Shown in pieces: positions 1,053-33,177 of a stretch of 39,169 nucleotides of DNA. Position 1 is the first letter of the stretch. Each line of letters opens with the position of its first letter. Made by a program: the position numbers and the translations under genes. The notes below the pieces were generated by a model that made no database searches, had not been told where the DNA came from, and worked only from the letters and a program-made list of their open reading frames with translations. The stretch covers positions 1 to 39,169 of the IMG/VR virus record IMGVR_UViG_3300027759_005402, one strand, 5' to 3'. Origin of the DNA: a virus.

Positions 1053-3908
1053 TTATATACAAGCGCTATCGCTACAGGTTATATCTACACCACCGGTAAT
1101 ATCGAACGTTCTAGATATATTTGCTCCGCCGGCTACGTTAACACATTCTATAAATCCAGCAGTTGCTGAAATAACTACATTACCATCTGGGGATACGTTT
1201 GCTACTTGAACAATAACATTTTGAGTACCGGTATAAGGAGTAGTTCCACTAAATCCATCACCTATATTAACCGGGAATGTAACTCCGGAAATAGTTACTC
1301 CATTAACTGAAATATTACTAATTATACCGCCAAAGAATCCGTTAGTACCTGATATTGTTGTTTCAGCTGGTGTAGGAGTAGGTGTAGCTGTAGGTACTGG
1401 TGTTTCAGTAGGGGTCGGTGTAGGTGTTAACGTTGGTGTTAGTGTCGGTGTTGGTGTTGGTGTTTCTGTTGGTGTAGGGGTTAATGTTGGAGTAGGAGTT
1501 GGTGTAGAGGTTGAGCATACAACGCAAGCGGCATTTGGAGTAGCTACTGTACTTGATGGGCCTCCAGATCTTGTCAATTGTCTTGAATTCGATCCGTCAC
1601 TAATCCAGAATGTAAATAAGTCGAAAGTAGGTATCTCTGCAATAGTAAATGTAGTTGCTGTACAGAAGTTACCTGTATCACTAGCTACAGAGTATGCAGT
1701 GTATGGAGTACTTACATTACCTCCCTCGCAAGCATTTTGAGCGCTTGTATTACTAATATATAGGTTTTGAGGTCCAGGTGTAGGTGTCGGTGTTGGAGTT
1801 AACGTCGGTGTTAATGTAGGAGTAGGTGTTAAAGTAGGTGTTAACGTAGGTGTAGGTGTTAACGTTGGTGTTAATGTTGGTGTAGGTGTAGGAGTTAACG
1901 TAGGAGTTGGTGTTAACGTTGGTGTTAATGTTGGAGTCGGTGTTGGAGGAGTAGGTGTAGGAGTTAACGTAGGTGTTGGAGTAGGAGGAGTAGGAGTAGG
2001 TGTTAATGTCGGCGTTAATGTTGGAGTTGGTGTTGGTGTCGTAGTAGGACAATTAGCTACATTTGTTGCAAATCCACTATTGTCAATCTGAACTACTGTT
2101 GATCCGTCACTCTTATATCTATCTCCTCCAACATAAGCTACTAATGGAATAGTAGGTGTTGTACTATTACCTTCGTAGTATGTTGTACCGTCAGTAAATG
2201 AACTTCCATAAGACCATAAGTAAATATTCTTAGTAGCACTACAAGCTGCAGCTGCGCTTATTGAAGCGGCTCCATTAACTAAATACTTGAAAGTAGGTGC
2301 TGGGGTAGGGGTTGGCGTTAATGTTGGAGTTGGAGTTAATGTAGGTGTTAATGTCGGTGTAGGTGTAGGCGGTGTTGGTGTAGGTGTTAATGTTGGTGTT
2401 AGCGTCGGTGTTGGTGTAGGAGTATTGGTAGGACAGATAGTACTATTGAAAGTAACGCCGCTATCGTTTATCTGGAATACATTATTATTTGTGTCAGCTC
2501 TCCACTGGTCTGCTCCAGCAATTGGTACGAATGGTAGTGTATTGCTATTGTAGAATGTAATACCGTCGTAATAAGTATCGCTATAAGCATATACTACAGT
2601 GTTTCTAATTGCAGAGCAAGCAGCAGTAGATCCGTTTCTAGCTTGAGTTATTGTAAATGCGAACGGTGGTGGTACAGGAGTTGGTGTAGGAGTAGGTGTT
2701 AAAGTAGGAGTTAGGGTCGGTGTAGGCGTTAGGGTTGGTGTTGGTGTTAAAGTCGGTGTAGGTGTTAATGTTGGTGTTGGATCTACGCTACAAGCTGAAC
2801 CTGATGCTCCAATGAATATATAAGGACTATCTGAGTTTACTGTGTCTGTTTGAGCACATACAGTTCTACTGCTACCATTAACTACTGAGCTTGTAACTGC
2901 GGTACCTGGACAATTAATGTAATAGAAATCATAAGCGTTTCTATTTGCTGTACCGTCGTCAGCAGTAACTACGTAAAGGTAACAAGATGCTGTTGCCGGT
3001 GTAGGAGTAGGTGTTAATGTCGGAGTAGGTGTAGGTGTTAATGTTTCTGTCGGTGTTGGTGTTAATGTCGGAGTAGGTGTTGGTTCTATTAGATTACATA
3101 ATTGACACTCTGTTGATCTTGATGCAAGAGTAGAACCGCTATTATGGAATATTTGAACCCATTTACCTTCAAATGACAACCAGAAAGAATCTGTAGTTAG
3201 CGTGGTAAAGAAACTACTACTGTAATTTGATGAACTACAGAAAGTATCGCCATCATAAGAAGCGCTAAATGAAGTTCCTCCATTACATTCTAAGTAGCCT
3301 GACGGTTGTGTTGTAAAGAATCTAGCATTAATTAGTGGCTGTGGGGTTGGAGTAGGGGTTGGTGTTAAGGTTGCAGTTGGTGTTGGTGTTGGTGTTAATG
3401 TAGGAGTAGGAGTAAGTTCGGTCGGTGTTGGCGTTGGTGTTAATGTCGGAGTAGGTGTTGGTTCTAGAGTAGCAGTAGGTGTAGGCGTTAAAGTTGGCGT
3501 AGGTGTTGACGTTGGGCCGGGAGTGGCAGTAGGCGTAGGTGTTAATGTTGGAGTAGGAGTAGGTCCTACAGTAGCAGTAGGTGTTGGAGTTATAGTTGGA
3601 GTCGGTGTTGGGCCTGGTGTTGCAGTAGGCGTTACTGTAGGTGTTGGTGTTACCGTTATAATCGGAATAATATTACTATATCCGTCACAAGCTCCACCAA
3701 CATTGGTAATATATGCAAAGTCGCTGCCATCTCCTACTAGTGCAGCAAAGCCGTTAAGTATTTGAGTTCTACTTACAGGATTTAAGCTACCGCTTGCAGC
3801 ATTTAGTGCTGGATATTGAGTGGGAGATCCGGCTTCAGAGTAGGAGACGTTAAAAGAATCACATGCAGTTTTAACGTTTTGAGCCTGTATATATATTAAT
3901 TGAGACAT
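1053..3908 (-). CDS. Thr-Pro repeat modular fibre/adhesin protein A
   Basis: A 951-residue protein. Residues 1-83 form an N-terminal domain that is clearly paralogous to that of the next gene ([10 protein letters not shown] versus [10 protein letters not shown], both ending in a GG-x-CDG segment). The rest alternates Thr-Pro linkers ([10 protein letters not shown] type) with beads of about 60-85 residues, most with two or more Cys, and ends in a roughly 105-residue Gly/Val-rich domain ([20 protein letters not shown]). Such architecture fits an extended virion fibre or adhesin that displays binding modules on flexible rods. No signal peptide is visible. The ATG at 3908 follows two TATTTATA-like motifs. 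Two glycosyltransferase genes follow. The receptor or target cannot be read from the sequence. The fibre role is inference from architecture and position after the tail operon. Confidence 0.75.
1363..3655 (-). repeat. Interspersed 6-bp repeat tracts encoding Thr-Pro linkers
   Basis: Several long tracts of degenerate hexamers (on the plus strand GGTGTT, GGTGTA, GGAGTA, GGAGTT and variants) encode the Thr-Pro linkers of fibre A. Higher-order repeats of 18-30 bases are visible. They are broken up by unique bead-coding DNA. Such tracts can change length by slippage or recombination in whole codon pairs without shifting the frame. Confidence 0.85.
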
Positions 3909-3926
3909 TTACTATATTGTATATTT

Positions 3927-3934
3927 TATAAATA
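3927..3934 (-). promoter_or_regulatory. Late-promoter-like motif TATTTATA (proximal)
   Basis: TATTTATA lies 18 bases upstream of the ATG of fibre A at 3908, in a 69-base gap after the fibre B gene. Assignment as a late promoter is inferred from its recurrence upstream of other virion genes. Confidence 0.5.
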
Positions 3935-3966
3935 TCTTCCAGATTATGATTACACTTATGTACTCT

Positions 3967-3974
3967 AATAAATA
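3967..3974 (-). promoter_or_regulatory. Late-promoter-like motif TATTTATT (distal)
   Basis: A second copy of the motif 58 bases upstream of the fibre A start and just after the stop of fibre B, giving a tandem pair in the same gap. Confidence 0.4.
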
Positions 3975-3977
3975 TTT

Positions 3978-6833
3978 TTAAAATTGACAAGCATCAGAAC
4001 ACGTTGTACTAGTCTTGATATAATTATCAAAATCTATGAAAGTTATATCCGGTGCTCCATTTCCGCTTATTTGATAAACATATCCATCTCCTATATTGTA
4101 CCAATTTCCAACTGTTAAGTTAGTAGAAGACCTAGCGGGTTCTGCTACTGATCCTTGATCTTGACATGGATCACATAGGTAACGTTCTATAGTATACCAT
4201 TGGTAAGGATCTGCGGGTGTTGGAGTAGGAGTTGGTGTTACAGTTGGTACCGGTGTTGAAGTAGGTGTAGGCGTTAGAGTAGGAGTTGGTGTTAATGTTG
4301 GCGTTAATGTAGGAGTCGGCGTTAATGTAGGAGTTAGTGTAGGAGTTGGGGTTGGTTCCGGTGTTGAGGTAGGTGTCGGTGTTAATGTTGGTGTAGGTGT
4401 AGGAGGAGTTGGTGTAGGAGTTGGTTGAGCACATAGTGTACTACAAGTCACGACTCCAGTTCCGCTCATAGTTGTAAGTAACGCTATTTGTGCTGATGCA
4501 TCTGACATTACTCTTAAAATATAGCCTGTAGTAGGGTCTAGTCTATAGCGTTGAGTCGGTGCTATTGATAATGTAACATTATTATTGATGTATAGATCTT
4601 CAATATATAAACAACTTCCGCCTTCTTGACATTCATACCTTTCTGCTAAATAGAAGAAGCTAGGAGTAGGAGTTGGCGTTAGAGTAGGAGTTGGTGTTGG
4701 TGGAGTAGGAGTAGGAGTAGGAGTTAATGTAGCGGTTGGTGTTGGTGTTGGTACAGGGGTAGCGGTAGGAGTTAGAGTAGGAGTTGGCGTAGGTGGTGTT
4801 GGTGTTGGAGTTAAGGTAGGAGTTGGTGTTGGACAGTTTGTTAAATTTGTTGCATATCCGTTATCGTCGATTTGAACTGCTGCTGATCCGTTACTCTTCC
4901 ATCTATCTGCTCCAGCATAAACTACTAATGGAATAGTAGGTGCAGTGCTTGTACCTTCGTAGTATGTTACTAGGTCTGTAAAAGTATCTGCATAGGACCA
5001 AATGTAAACGTTTTTAGTTGTACTACAAGCTACAGTTGCGCTTACTGAAGGAGATCCGTTAACTCTGTAACTATAGCCAGGCGGTGGGGTAGGGGTTGGT
5101 GTAGGTGTAGGTGTTGCTGTTGGAGCTGGCGTAGCTGTAGGTGTTGGTGTCAAGGTTGGAGTTGGTGTAGGAGTTGAAGTTCCACATATAACGCAAGCTG
5201 CATCTGGAGTAGCTGTTGTACTTGTCGGTCCTCCTTGTCTTGTTAGTTGTCTTGAATTCGATCCATCACTAACCCAGAATGTATCTAAATCTAAAGCAGG
5301 TATCTCTGCGATAGTAAATGTGGTTGCTGTACAGAAATTACCGGTATTACTAGCTACAGAGTATGCAAAATATGGAGTACTTACATTACCTCCGTTACAA
5401 GCATTTGCACCGCTTGTATTACTAATATATAAACTTTGTGGTCCAGGTGTAGGTGTCGGTGTTGGTGTAGGTGTTGGACAATAAACAATTTCAGTCACTC
5501 TTCCATCCTCTACACTCGGTAAACCAATTAAATAAACTTGACTATTGGCAGTATCGTTTACATATTTAGTTGCAACAATAGGAGTTGTTAATCCTAGATC
5601 TTCGTAAAGGACTGTTCCGACGCCTAAAGTACCTCTATAATAAATTTGAGTTGTAATAGTTCCATTACAAGCATTTGTTAAGTTACTGCCTGTATAAGAA
5701 GTGAAAGATACTGGTGTACAGCTTCCGCAATCTGCATACTCTGTGTTAATAGAAACATTTGTACTAGCTGCTGAAGCAGTTACTGATGCTGTTGATAAGA
5801 CATTCCAACAATTTGCACCATTCATACCAGGTATTAAGTCGCTTAGATCATCCATTGTATAAACCTTGCCGACTACAGGGCTCAATCCGTTCGATTGCAT
5901 CACATAAGTAGTGACACTACCACTACACAATCTAACATTAAACTTAGGTAGTGGAGTAGGTGTAGGGGTAGGGGTAGGAGTTAATGTTAGTGTTGGAGTT
6001 AAGGTAGGGGTAGGCGTTGGTGTAAGTGTTGGCGCAATATAAGTAGTCTGTACACTTCCTGATAAAGATCCTGTGAAAGATCCTGTTAAATAAGTTCCTC
6101 TACTTAATCTACTACCACTATCAGTTGTTGTAAATACACTAGATGTATTTGAAGAGCCCGTAATACTTAAAATCATCGTTGAAGTACCGGTTAATGGCCA
6201 TGAACTTCCACTATTATAACCGCTAAAGATTACATAGTCTCCAGGTATAGCACTAAGCGATCCGCTTACAGAGCTAGAGTAGAAGTAACTACTAGAAGTA
6301 GCTGATCCTGAAGGTCTTTGTATTACAACAGACATACTAGCAGGAACATTAGCAGCTAGATTAAGTCGGTAGTATATTGGTACAGGTATTGGAGTAGCGG
6401 TAGGGGTAGGGGTAGGGGTTAAGGTAGGAGTTGGTGTTAGGGTCGGTGTTAGTGTTGGTGTAGGCGTAGGAGGGGTAGGAGTAGGTGTTAATGTTGGAGT
6501 AGGTGTTAATGTCGGTGTTGGTGTCGGTGTTAAGGTTAGAGTAGGTGTTGGCGTTGGTGTTACTGTAGGTGTCGGAGCTCCTGGAACAAGCGTTGCTATA
6601 GTCACTCCGTCACACTTTCCACCGTAATTGCTAAAATATATGTATTGTACATCGTCAGGAACTAAAGCATAAAATCCAGTAGTAATTTGAGAGCTACTTA
6701 TAGGAGATAGGCTTCCACTACTTAAGCTCATTGCTAAGTATTGGGTTGTACTTCCTACTAGTGAGTAGTATACATTAAACAGATCGGCTGTTACTCCGAC
6801 TCTCTGTGCTTTTATGTATAGTGTTCTTGACAT
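3978..6833 (-). CDS. Thr-Pro repeat modular fibre/adhesin protein B
   Basis: A 951-residue paralogue of fibre A; the equal length is coincidental because the modules are in a different order. Residues 1-88 match the N-terminal domain of A. A Ser/Thr-rich bead follows the first linker ([20 protein letters not shown]), then beads shared with A: one around residues 470-560 beginning [20 protein letters not shown] and one beginning [20 protein letters not shown], both very close to beads of A at both protein and DNA level. The C-terminal bead is Cys-rich ([14 protein letters not shown]). A TATTTATA motif lies 7 bases upstream of the ATG. Probable role: host recognition or virion decoration. The exact location in the virion is unknown. 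Confidence 0.75.
4204..6580 (-). repeat. Interspersed 6-bp repeat tracts encoding Thr-Pro linkers
   Basis: The same hexamer family as in fibre A, in several tracts between bead-coding segments of fibre B. Because both genes carry the same repeats in the same orientation, the tracts are natural sites for recombination between them. Confidence 0.85.
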
Positions 6834-6840
6834 TTATTTA

Positions 6841-6848
6841 TATAAATA
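6841..6848 (-). promoter_or_regulatory. Late-promoter-like motif TATTTATA
   Basis: TATTTATA ends 7 bases before the ATG of fibre B at 6833, in a 35-base AT-rich gap. If it is a -10-type element the transcript would start at or very near the start codon. Confidence 0.5.
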
Positions 6849-6868
6849 TTTTTACTTTGTTTTATTTT

Positions 6869-8890
6869 TTAATCTCCACCGCAATTAGCTCCATTATACA
6901 CTGTACCGTTACTTGGTGTTATCGTAGCTCCGTTACCGCTTGTATCAGTAAACCAAGGATATGAATTAGTACCTGCATTATTTAAGTAAGTTGCATTAGA
7001 ATAATAGTAGCTGTATCCTGCAGCAAAATATGCAGGTGTTCCAGGATACCCGTATACACCTACAGTACCTAAGTCATAGCCGCAAGGATAACTTCCTATT
7101 GCTGCTGTAAAGAGCAATCCGAATGTAGCACCAGTAGCAGTTGGAGTAGGAGTCGGTGTTAGGGTAGGTGTTAAGGTCGGTGTAGGAGTTATACTCGGTG
7201 TTGGAGTTGGAGTTAGGAAATTACAAGCATAGTAGTCTGAAATACTGCTGCCGTACTGGAATCTGTAGCTGTTTATCCAGTAGTATCCAAATGATCCGTT
7301 AGCGCTAAAGTTTGTAGTTAGGCTTGATTCATTATATAAAATAGTATTATTACCTAAAGTACCTGTATAAAATACCGTTTGAGTATATCCGCTAACTCCT
7401 CCTTGAGTACAAGCTTCAGTTCCTGTTTGATAACCGTAAGGATAGTCTACGTAAGAGTTCATCCAGATAGTAGCACTAGAAGTTCCAAATCCTAAAGTTG
7501 CTGTTGGTGTTGGAGTTGGTGTTGCTGTAGGAGGTGGTGTTGGAGTTAAAGTAGGTGTTGGAGTAGGTGTTAATGTAGTACAGTTAGTATAATTTGTAAT
7601 ACTTGAGCCGTATTCAAACTTGTATCCTGCAATCCAATACCAGCCAAATGATCCATCAGTGCTAAAGTTTGTAGTAAGTCCTACCTCATTATATAATGCA
7701 GTTCCGTTACCTAAAGTTCCTACGTAATATACTGTCTGTACTACTCCGGTTATTCCTCCTAATGTACATGCAATTAACCCAGTCTGGTATCCATAAGGGT
7801 AATCTACATTAGAGTCCATATAGACAGAACCGCTCTTTATTACTAATGGTGCTGTAGGAGTAGGCGTTGGTGTTAATGTCGGTGTTGGTGTCAGGGTTGG
7901 AGTTGGTGTTAGAGTTGGTGTTGGAACAGGTGTTCGAGTCGGCGTTAGAGTAGGAGTAGGTGTTAGGGTAGCTGTAGGTGTAGGTGTTGGTGTCGGTAAA
8001 ATATTATCTATGCTGATTCCTGATACTCCACAATCTACGATTTCTACTGTTAGCTTTTGAGGATCAGATACTGCGCAGTAGGTTGAATTTACGGTGTATT
8101 TAGCCTCGTAAGTACCTACTACATTAATTAAGTTATTATTTCCAGTTAATGATACGCGTCCAGATGACTCTATGTTATTGGTTGGAAAAGAATTAGCAGA
8201 AGAGGTTATTATACTTAAAGTACTTGTATTAACAGGTGCACAGTCGGCTTGAGCATCAGCAATTGGATTAAATACCTTACTGCTCTGCGTTATATCAAAC
8301 TGATAATACTTAGGGAAAGTAAAGGGACCGCCGTCCATTACACAGTAATAGTCGGGGTTAGTTATAATTGCAAATCCTTGAGGATATATTATATTACCTA
8401 CGCGTGTATTATTACTTAATCTATCTACTACGTTACCATTACCGTCGTCAGCTAAGTAATATCCGCTTCCAGTTAAAAAGAAACTCTTTCTAGATACCTT
8501 CTCACCGAAAGTATTTTTCGGAATATTAATAATCTTTATTTTAGCTAAAGACTGTGTAGGAAAATATCGAATATCAGCAGAAGAAGATAAGGTACTGTTG
8601 TTTTCAAACGTACCAGAAGCTGCTGTAGACTGTAGGGAGTTGTCTGCACTTGAAGTGCTATACATATAACTGCCGGTCAGGAAATTAGAATAGAACAAGT
8701 GTCTAATAGATAAGTATCGCAAAGTTCTTTGCGGCACAGATCCTGTTACTGTAACGGGGCCATTTAACCCACTTTGTGCATAAATACCTGAATCGCATAT
8801 AGCAGTGTTACTATAAGAGGAAGAGTACTTAAGTTTAATGGGAGTAGTGGCAACATCAGAAACTAAAAGACTATTTGATGCTCTACTCAT
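6869..8890 (-). CDS. Tail/fibre protein C with Thr-Pro linkers and a duplicated bead
   Basis: A 673-residue protein. Roughly the first 300 residues are not repetitive and look like a virion-anchoring region ([20 protein letters not shown], then [20 protein letters not shown]). It then carries two tandem copies of a bead with the shared segment [10 protein letters not shown] and a later LTTNFS-x-x-GSFG motif, separated by Thr-Pro linkers, and ends in a Gly/Tyr/Ser-rich bead. The N-terminal part is unrelated to fibres A and B, so this protein may be the base to which, or beside which, they attach. It begins 12 bases after the stop of the next upstream gene and has no late motif of its own, which suggests cotranscription with the tail genes. 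The role is inferred from position and architecture. Confidence 0.7.
7136..8000 (-). repeat. 6-bp repeat tracts encoding Thr-Pro linkers
   Basis: Three shorter hexamer tracts (about 7136-7210, 7498-7572 and 7853-7995) of the same family as in fibres A and B, separating the duplicated beads of protein C. Confidence 0.8.
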
Positions 8891-29057: not shown

Positions 29058-29096
29058 GGATTAGGCATTAGATTCCCTTTCATCTCCCCAGTCTCT

Positions 29097-29366: not shown

Positions 29367-29477
29367 TTATTTTGAAAAGTACTCTACTGCTGTATTAGCT
29401 AATATTGACAATCCTAATGCTATTAAACAGATACCTAGGAATAAATGTATCTGCTCGTCGTTCTTCTTCTTATCCAT
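29367..29477 (-). CDS. Single-pass membrane microprotein, 36 aa
   Basis: A 36-residue protein: a charged start (MDKKKNDEQIHL), then one hydrophobic segment (FLGICLIALGLSILANTAV) and a short tail (EYFSK). It should sit in the inner membrane with the N-terminus in the cytoplasm by the positive-inside rule. Its first codons overlap the last codons of the upstream 69-residue gene in an ATGGATAA arrangement (8-base overlap), which indicates translational coupling. Candidate roles include superinfection exclusion or membrane modulation; the sequence does not decide. Confidence 0.65.
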   Translation of the reverse strand: MDKKKNDEQIHLFLGICLIALGLSILANTAVEYFSK

Positions 29478-29679
29478 GTAATAATTGTTTACCGTTATCT
29501 GAATTACCTTCTATCATTCGTACCATTGTTTGAGTATATCTTTCTACTTTGCCTTCATCGATAGTCATTCCGCCTTCAGGGGACCATCCAAAGTCCATTA
29601 ATACGTTTACTTTATTACTTAACTCCTCTTGAGAGGGTGCGGTAAGCACTTTGTAATGTTTATTCATATATATGTTCAT
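29470..29679 (-). CDS. Small phage protein, 69 aa
   Basis: A 69-residue protein of unknown function: MNIYMNKHYKVLTAPSQEEL, a helix (SNKVNVLMDFGWSPEGG), then YTQTMVRMIEG. The layout, a beta strand plus a helix plus GW-x-PEGG and a Met-rich strand, resembles small phage proteins with a DUF1737-like fold (L..K.N.L...GW.P.GG), a family known from phages and bacteria. A second ATG at 29667 is possible. No TTG-N20-TA promoter is found upstream; instead the 204-base GC-rich region with a decamer array precedes it. Confidence 0.7.
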   Translation of the reverse strand: MNIYMNKHYKVLTAPSQEELSNKVNVLMDFGWSPEGGMTIDEGKVERYTQTMVRMIEGNSDNGKQLLHG

Positions 29680-29883
29680 TTTGTTTAAAATTTTTCCCGG
29701 GCGTGGCTCGTCACTTACCCCCCTGCTATATCGCCTATACCCCGATAACAGCTGTAATTAAGGTGGTGTTAGACTGCCCTCAGGTGACCGCAAGTGCCCG
29801 CAACTGTCGTCGACTGTCCGCAAGTGGGGGTGACTTTTTTCTTGTCGACCCCTACCCTTAGACTTATTTACTAGCCCTCGGCA
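29680..29883. other. GC-rich non-coding region without ATG
   Basis: This 204-base gap has no ATG on either strand and is far more GC-rich than its surroundings. It holds a 10-bp periodic array (29766-29835), the palindrome ACAGCTGT at 29749-29756, a possible stem TATCG/CGATA at about 29728-29746, and a GGGGT..ACCCC stem closing an A-rich loop at about 29827-29853. It could be a protein-binding site, a structured RNA or a replication element. Confidence 0.6.
29766..29835. repeat. Seven degenerate 10-bp direct repeats
   Basis: Consecutive decamers: GTGTTAGACT, GCCCTCAGGT, GACCGCAAGT, GCCCGCAACT, GTCGTCGACT, GTCCGCAAGT, GGGGGTGACT. Every unit begins with G and ends with T, most with A-C/G-T, and the core of units 3, 4 and 6 is CCGCAA. 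A period of 10 equals about one helical turn, so a protein would meet the same face of DNA each time. Confidence 0.6.
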
Positions 29884-30360
29884 TTAAGCCGCAGGCTCTA
29901 CCTTATATACTCTCTTAACAAAGGACTTAGCCGATCCTTTAGCTATATTGTCTATCATCTCACCATCCTTAACAGTTAAGGCATGATAGCCTGTTACTAT
30001 TAAATAGGTACCCTCTATATGTTCTTTCATGAAGGTACTTACTCTATTCCTTCTTGCTATGTCTTTGCCATGAAGTCTATAGACCTTCTTAGGGTTAGCT
30101 AAGAACTCTTTAATAGTCTTCCCGTTGATTAACTCTTTACTCTCCGTTAGCTTCTTAACACCATGCATAATGTCTAGAGTCATTACACCCTTCCTATCCT
30201 CTCTACCGAATGCTCTCTTGGCTACTTGATGAGCTTCATCATAAGAGATATCGAATGCTGATGCTGTAGCATATACTACACAGTCATTGGTCTCTCCTTT
30301 AGCAATGATTGAGTCCTTCACTACTAATGTCTTTGCGTTTGTTACTTTGATTTGATACAT
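29884..30360 (-). CDS. Papain/C39-like cysteine-peptidase-fold protein, 158 aa
   Basis: A 158-residue protein. The N-terminal segment GETNDCVVYATASAFDISYD carries a candidate nucleophile Cys27 at the start of a helix, and GTYLIVTGYHALTVKDGEMI carries His125 and nearby Asp residues (131, 136), the order expected in papain/C39-like cysteine peptidases and transglutaminase-like enzymes. Similar NDC-VV-x-A-x-A proteins are common in phages and bacteria as uncharacterised proteins. The ATG at 30360 is chosen because it directly follows the standard early leader; a longer frame upstream would run through the promoter. The role may be cleavage or modification of a host protein early in infection; this is inference. 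Confidence 0.75.
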   Translation of the reverse strand: MYQIKVTNAKTLVVKDSIIAKGETNDCVVYATASAFDISYDEAHQVAKRAFGREDRKGVMTLDIMHGVKKLTESKELINGKTIKEFLANPKKVYRLHGKDIARRNRVSTFMKEHIEGTYLIVTGYHALTVKDGEMIDNIAKGSAKSFVKRVYKVEPAA

Positions 30361-30381
30361 AACTTTGATTTTTAATTTACA

Positions 30382-30412
30382 TAAAGGTAAAGAGAAGGCC
30401 CCGAAGGGCCAA
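30382..30412 (-). promoter_or_regulatory. Promoter with nested UUCG terminator hairpin
   Basis: TTG, 20 bases, TACCTTTA, 21 bases upstream of the ATG at 30360. The spacer contains the perfect hairpin GGCCC-TTCG-GGGCC followed by TTCTCTTT, which also fits a terminator of the gene ending at 30419. Confidence 0.85.
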
Positions 30413-30418
30413 CTCTTA

Positions 30419-30883
30419 TTAAGCTTCTTTAGGGTCGAAGGATGCAGCATAAAGGATTGGGTCGGTAGTTAACTTGTGAGTTAATTCTTTCCAGCTCCAA
30501 GCCGTAATAGTTCCATCCTCTCCTCCCTCTCTTACTCTCATGTCTACTAATTGAGCTTTACCTTCATCTTGTTTATATCCTAGAGAAGGAGCGCACCAAA
30601 TTACCACATCACCCTTTTCATCGTAGGTACAAATTTGAAAGGAGTCATAAAGCTTTCCGTTCATTGGACAATTGTTCTTAAAAGTAACATAATACTTTTC
30701 AGGGTCCAATCCTAACTTAGACATTACCTTATCGGCTTTAGTCATTAATAACTTACTCTTAATCTTAAGAGCTTTTTCTGAACAGAACCAATCCCAGAAG
30801 AAGTAGTTGTTGTCGTCTACCCACTCTTCACTATTTGCTTTAAAGGCAGCAAATTGAGCCTTGAAGTTTAATTTACTTGACAT
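30419..30883 (-). CDS. Early-cassette protein, 154 aa
   Basis: A 154-residue protein of unknown function. It is rich in aromatic residues near the N-terminus (EEWVDDNNYFFWDWFCSEKA), has a basic helix (LKIKSKLLMTKADKVMSKLG), and then a beta-like part with YYVTFKNNCPMNGKLYDSFQ and DVVIWCAPSLGY. It ends in SFDPKEA. It is followed at once by the hairpin-promoter of the cysteine-peptidase-like gene and is itself driven by a promoter inside the preceding gene. I see no family motif. Confidence 0.75.
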   Translation of the reverse strand: MSSKLNFKAQFAAFKANSEEWVDDNNYFFWDWFCSEKALKIKSKLLMTKADKVMSKLGLDPEKYYVTFKNNCPMNGKLYDSFQICTYDEKGDVVIWCAPSLGYKQDEGKAQLVDMRVREGGEDGTITAWSWKELTHKLTTDPILYAASFDPKEA

Positions 30884-32955: not shown

Positions 32956-33177
32956 CTATGCAATAGCTGAAAGCTTCTGCAAGTTAGTTTGACGGTCTTT
33001 CACTAATCGGTAAGCTTTGTTAACGATTGAAGTGTTGTTACGAAGACCACGTAATGTTTTAGAAACCATTGATTGAGTGTAGCCAGTCTCTTCAGCGATG
33101 CGATTAATATCACCATGACGCTTAGCTTCTGTAAATGCTACGATTTTGTACACCGGGTTCAAATTCTTGAATGCCAT
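32956..33177 (-). CDS. Small helix-turn-helix DNA-binding protein, 73 aa
   Basis: A 73-residue basic protein. GDINRIAEETGYTQSMVSKT (about residues 22-41) is a good helix-turn-helix: an I-x-x-I-A-x-E-T-G helix, the turn, and S-M-V-S-K-T-L-R-G as recognition helix. A basic C-terminal helix (AYRLVKDRQTNLQKLSAIA) follows. It probably binds DNA as a dimer to control part of the early cassette; the repeated promoters are obvious candidate targets. It has its own promoter and terminator. The regulated genes and sign of regulation are unknown. Confidence 0.8.
   Translation of the reverse strand: MAFKNLNPVYKIVAFTEAKRHGDINRIAEETGYTQSMVSKTLRGLRNNTSIVNKAYRLVKDRQTNLQKLSAIA

Follow-up and report, generated by a model that had tools for sequence, protein, structure and literature searches.

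A phased decamer array beside a conserved 104-bp core in uncultured T4-like phages, a possible replication origin or gene switch

Annotations of uncultured phages hardly ever include cis-acting sites, and a 204-base gap (29680-29883) in a 39,169-nucleotide virus record from IMG/VR, which we analyzed at its full length and refer to as the window, raises the question of what a GC-rich, phased repeat does between phage genes. The first-pass annotation had pointed to seven consecutive decamers at 29766-29835, and the sequence reads exactly as it had described: in frame, the units are GTGTTAGACT GCCCTCAGGT GACCGCAAGT GCCCGCAACT GTCGTCGACT GTCCGCAAGT GGGGGTGACT, with G first and T last in 7/7 and a CCGCAA core in three of them. 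The GC content is 61% in the array, 51% in the gap and 35.5% in the window, and among stretches of 204 bases the GC maximum of the window falls at this gap. Our analyses indicate that the gap holds a genuine DNA control site, possibly one where replication starts or genes are switched, rather than a chance pattern: a conserved, single-copy and geometrically rigid site with a clear anatomy, at what appears to be the boundary between early and late genes.

The 10-bp period of the gap is far beyond chance. Self-identity within the gap was 0.52-0.56 at lags of 10, 20 and 30, compared with about 0.15-0.3 at other lags and values near 0.2 at the neighboring ones. When the dinucleotides of the gap were shuffled 5000 times, no shuffle matched the lag-10 score, whichever period between 5 and 30 was considered, in agreement with the periodicity first proposed. 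The array is also the window maximum of the combined lag-10/20 score. Clean repeats are limited to the five units at 29776-29825, which on the transcribed (-) strand approximate ACYTGMGGNC, while the outer two decamers, both in register, belong to flanking elements, the first (GTGTTAGACT) forming the border of a conserved core, whereas GGGGGTGACT, the last, is an arm of a dyad. The array is the flank of a larger element, which is ordered as a dyad with an A-rich loop, the array, an indel-free core of 103-104 bp and an AT-rich tail (Table 1), with the core conserved more widely than the array.

Table 1. Features of the element and its surroundings (positions in the window)
Feature	Position	Strand	Remarks
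Last early-type promoter cassette before the gap, TTGG-19 nt-TACCTTTA	30382..30412	-	
Upstream gene, 188 aa as ORF	29884..30450	-	phrog_3754 family
Dyad/hairpin GGGGTCGAC-AAGAAAAAA-GTCACCCC, A-rich loop	29827..29852	-	directly upstream of the array; 3′ arm in phase with the array units
Five contiguous 10-bp direct repeats	29776..29825	-	(-) strand units ACTTGCGGAC AGTCGACGAC AGTTGCGGGC ACTTGCGGTC ACCTGAGGGC; kept in relatives
Conserved core, 104 bp, ACACCAC...TAATTACAGCTGTTATCGGGGTATAGGCGATATAGC...GTGACGAGCCACGCCCGGG...ATATATAT	29666..29769	-	free of net indels across the 8 lineages
AT-rich tail of the core, AAATTTTAAACAAAATGAACATATATAT	29666..29695	-	stops between -2 and +5 nt from the start codon of the next gene in all lineages
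Downstream gene, 69 aa, DUF1737-like (weak)	29470..29679	-	replaced or absent in relatives

The first-pass annotation had staked its reading on the recurrence of period and core in related phages, and both recur. Relatives were collected from IMG/VR by searches with the neighboring proteins and with core patterns, giving eight lineages: the window (a 39-kb virus record, with the near-identical contig L002/L030), L003, L029, L033, L034, L037, L047, and L065, to which the nearly identical L062 was assigned. Other pattern matches (L035, L036, L038-L040, L063, L066, and L067) proved to be chance or coding matches. The 10-bp period was significant in seven of the eight lineages, with 0/3000 shuffles reaching it in each; in L065 the period was not significant (P 0.15, shuffles), and the core alone is kept. 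On the gene strand, the array reads ACCCGCGGGC AGTCGTCACC ACTTGAGGGC ACTTGCGGTC ACCTGACGGC in L003, ACTTGAGGTC ACTTGCCGTC ACCTGCGGTC ACTTGAGGGC in L029, ACTTGAGGTC ACCTGACCTC ACCTGCGGTC ACTTGAGGGC in L034, and CAGATGAAGA CAGTCGTAGG CAGGTGAGGG CAGATGATGG in L047, and it has five units in L033 and L037. Copy number changes by whole units, as L029 and L034 have four, exactly one 10-bp unit fewer than the five of the window, L003, L033, and L037, and in L047 the unit sequence is altered in all copies with the 10-bp period unchanged. The two innermost units are the most conserved, and the period stays in fixed register with the conserved core in seven lineages.

The core, downstream of the array, measures 103 or 104 bp from ACACCAC to ATATATAT in all eight lineages. 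Its identity to the window is 97% in L003, 91% in L029, 89% in L033, 86% in L034, 88% in L037, 69% in L047, and 70% in L065, a range (69-97%) comparable, where comparison is possible, to the 68-93% identity of the DUF932 gene at the DNA level across lineages. For the adjacent 188-aa gene, even the nearer relatives reach only about 71-75% identity, and this gene and the 69-aa gene on the other side of the element are much less conserved than the core in most relatives. Invariant blocks of the core include ACACCACNNTAATTACAGCT and GAGTGAYGA, and AAGTGACGA is present in the window and L003. Upstream of the array, a GC-rich dyad with an A-rich loop is found in 8/8 lineages, its stem sequences differing and its pairing kept, and it folds below shuffles (z about -2 to -4.6) in five of them. 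In the window group the next gene encodes a DUF1737-like protein of 65-73 aa; L037 lacks it, and in L047 and L065 its place is taken by an unrelated family of 71-100 aa. In L065 the upstream gene is also different, and the element core is still present. For the 69-aa gene of the window, the second ATG (29667) is the likelier start, because the first ATG falls within the conserved tail and L034 does not have it. The full-length element occurs once per record in the window and in the relatives' records searched, and partial copies are only 17-nt AT-rich fragments in two records; a multi-copy regulon was rejected, as no second full-length copy turned up in any of these records. The element is thus conserved as DNA, single-copy in the records searched, fixed in geometry and independent of its neighboring genes.

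A search of 50,697 named phage records turned up no homologous element. The nearest named phage is Flavobacterium phage immuto (Immutovirus, NC_055915.1; DUF932 38%, baseplate wedge protein 44%), in which the order DUF932, (element), HD protein and downstream/baseplate genes is collinear with the window. At 66.3-66.9 kb, immuto carries two unannotated clusters of ACCCGTTNNNNN repeats, with 8 and 13 counted words mostly spaced by 11-13 bp (L041 15140-15260 and 15560-15740, about 300 bp between them). Two such clusters are present in the uncultured L051, L052, L053, L054, L057, and L061, and one by word count in L058 and L059. These arrays resemble the element in being non-coding, GC-rich and built of short direct repeats in the same syntenic interval, from DUF932 to the HD/baseplate genes, but differ in their unit (ACCCGTTNNNNN, 11-13 bp), in forming two clusters, and in having no recognizable core. 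Because no core sequence is shared, we call the immuto array probably analogous to the element, and its ACCCGTTNNNNN clusters are a candidate origin or other protein-binding site.

Since the array changes by whole 10-bp units and the core is rigid, the element is most likely a DNA site bound by protein. The earlier suggestion of iterons or cooperative repressor sites finds support in the conservation as far as a phased protein-binding array is concerned, but it took for the whole what is only the flank of a larger element. We infer protein binding and the initiation of replication as its function, and an iteron-type replication-initiation site is the reading that we tentatively prefer, at somewhat under an even chance. 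A phage DNA-binding protein would bind one decamer after another along a single face of the helix, with one protomer for each turn, beside the core, which would fix the geometry of the nucleoprotein complex; this complex would then open the AT-rich tail and allow DNA replication to start, possibly helped by transcription coming from the early genes.

Direct repeats, a rigid spacer and an AT-rich stretch are the layout of iteron origins, and the element has both several direct repeats of one unit at constant spacing (7/8 lineages) and an AT-rich region, putatively unwound, at a fixed distance (103-104 bp from the start of the core to ATATATAT). It is like the iteron origins of plasmids and lambda ori in its tandem repeats in register, rigid core, adjacent AT-rich stretch, and single copy. 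It differs from them in its contiguous 10-bp units, as iteron units are usually 17-22 bp, and in that no initiator gene was identified among the neighbors scanned: no initiator family was found among these proteins, and the 73-aa HTH protein at 32956-33177 is a candidate only. Contiguous direct repeats of 10-11 bp bound by small dimeric proteins are also known from parC, the centromere arrays of the ParR/RHH type, but no ParM or ParR genes were recognized here and a partition role would be unexpected in a lytic phage. No DnaA-type box was recognized at the element, and no GC-skew switch was seen at the element in the window or at the Immutovirus array; T4-like origins do not all show such a switch (PMC3016281). 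That L065 keeps the core without a significant array is a point against an origin.

The window phage has T4-type baseplate genes, which makes the T4 origins a natural comparison. Among these, the minimal regions of oriF and oriG span about 100 bp and include an AT-rich unwinding element, and oriE is described as combining evenly spaced 12-nt repeats with an early promoter, the role of its iterons being described as ill defined (PMC3016281). The element has no sequence match to T4 origins, and its repeats are non-coding and 10 bp long whereas those of T4 are coding and 12 bp long; neither the gene context of oriE (gene 5, repEA/repEB) nor sequence homology to it was found. Next to the annotated T4 oriE, we observed repeats at a 24-nt spacing in gene 5 coding DNA (L068 2903-3070, equal to NC_000866 79402-79569), and what has been reported as oriE repeats may in part stem from a repeat in the protein.

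The strongest alternative is transcription control, a possibility of some weight that we nevertheless place well below even. Here the array would bind an activator or repressor, the core and tail would form an unusual promoter (of middle or switch type) with its leader, and the whole would replace the early cassette. An early-type cassette, TTGG-19 nt-TANCTTTA, precedes many genes at 30.4-36.7 kb, including most of the early genes upstream, mostly lies 21-29 nt before the ATG, and is similar to the flavobacterial -7 box TAnnTTTG (PMC9723704). The gap had been described as being without an ATG, which is not literally so, as an ATG lies in the AT-rich tail and start codons lie at the gap edge, but it is indeed free of an early cassette; the nearest one upstream is at 30412, and the gap does separate the early cassettes from the downstream genes, as had been claimed. 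A late-like motif, CTATTTATTA, begins only at 29058, downstream of the gap, and is absent shortly before the next start codon. Judging from promoter motifs and gene content, the element thus lies at a putative early-to-late boundary.

A promoter or leader would fit the tail at least as well as an origin, because the start codon of the next gene stays within -2 to +5 nt of it in all lineages, across three unrelated next genes, although the tight gene packing makes a nearby start codon expected anyway. The dyad also resembles the spacer hairpin of the early cassette and in L047 is a full early cassette directly before the array. Against transcription control, an indel-free core of 104 bp is long for a promoter, the element occurs once per record and not at several genes, and no recognizable -7/-33 promoter boxes are present in the gap. 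No terminator-like site was found in the gap, and read-through from 30412 is therefore possible and could serve the next genes. The single copy and the long core are the reasons why we favor an origin over a switch, and the two could be one element, because T4 oriF and oriG depend on transcription.

A phased direct-repeat array with a core is of a known kind, and what is new is the combination of decamers with an indel-free core of 104 bp. At its boldest, and we consider this rather doubtful, the element would represent an undescribed class of phage origin, or a combined origin and switch, in uncultured T4-like phages of Bacteroidetes, in which decamer iterons are tied to a core of 104 bp and an AT-rich tail where early genes give way to late ones. 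The sister Immutovirus, with an unrelated 12-bp array in two clusters at the same place, would then indicate that unit and period were replaced and the site was kept. As immuto is cultured and carries a possibly analogous array, origin and promoter tests are feasible in an existing laboratory phage.

A packaging site of the pac type, bound by a small terminase ring whose HTH domains would each contact one helical turn, is unlikely. It would account for a single-copy, GC-rich element with direct repeats in helix phase. TTGCGG words, which we took to be an SPP1-like pac signature, were abandoned as such, since the word is absent from the revisited SPP1 genome paper and work on SF6 gives the repeats little role. 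The pac site of SPP1 has sets of direct repeats beside the cut region and the start of a gene (PMC4737164, PMC6316719). In the element, too, direct repeats lie close to a conserved region and the start of a gene, but it is not near recognized terminase genes: none was recognized near it in the window, and the large terminase of Immutovirus is about 50 kb from its array. In addition, the DNA-binding domain of the SF6 small terminase is little specific for repeats (PMC4737164).

An element acting as RNA, either a structured 5′ leader or a small RNA, is improbable. The region is probably transcribed by read-through, L047 has a promoter directly before the array, and the upstream dyad keeps its pairing with different stem sequences in all lineages. 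However, the fold of the whole gap was no better than that of shuffles on either strand (z -0.9 and -0.3), Rfam gave no match for the gap even at an E of 5, and the eight-lineage alignment showed no core pairs with a change on both sides; covariation in the core is almost nil. A contiguous 10-nt repeat with whole-unit indels also has no obvious rationale at the RNA level. It is because RNA folding is unremarkable that a protein-binding DNA site emerges as most likely.

A chance or passive repeat without function, arising by slippage or as captured GC-rich DNA, is very improbable: the copy number varies, the array is not significant in L065 and the GC content looks foreign, but seven lineages keep period, register, and core, with the two innermost units most conserved, and a simple chance pattern is ruled out by the shuffles and the conservation. 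Host-derived DNA was likewise rejected, as neither of two core patterns was matched exactly in 84,980 bacterial and archaeal genomes.

Some observations were made outside the element. The early cassettes at 30.4-36.9 kb are fixed at 31 nt (for example 32356, 32096, 33758, 35112, and 35781 on the (-) strand and 36885 on the (+) strand), and in many of them the 19 nt of the spacer form an inverted repeat around a TGAAA-type loop, with stems that vary by copy (GGAGGCCTGAAAGGGCCTCC, GGGGTTTGAAATATAACCCC); such a cassette reads as a promoter whose two boxes are separated by a hairpin, perhaps a fused terminator-promoter. The host of this uncultured phage is probably a Flavobacterium-like bacterium. 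At 1053-8890, the window encodes two proteins of 951 aa and one of 673 aa with dense coding repeats of 6, 12, and 18 nt (TRF rows), which are probably repetitive fiber-type proteins. In immuto-like phages, a conserved, non-coding, GC-rich stretch, GGGGGCGC...TCACGCGCAAATTCTCCCAACCC, precedes a gene (L059 11390-11490, L049 12150-12240, and L055 11220-11340) and is possibly a structured leader.
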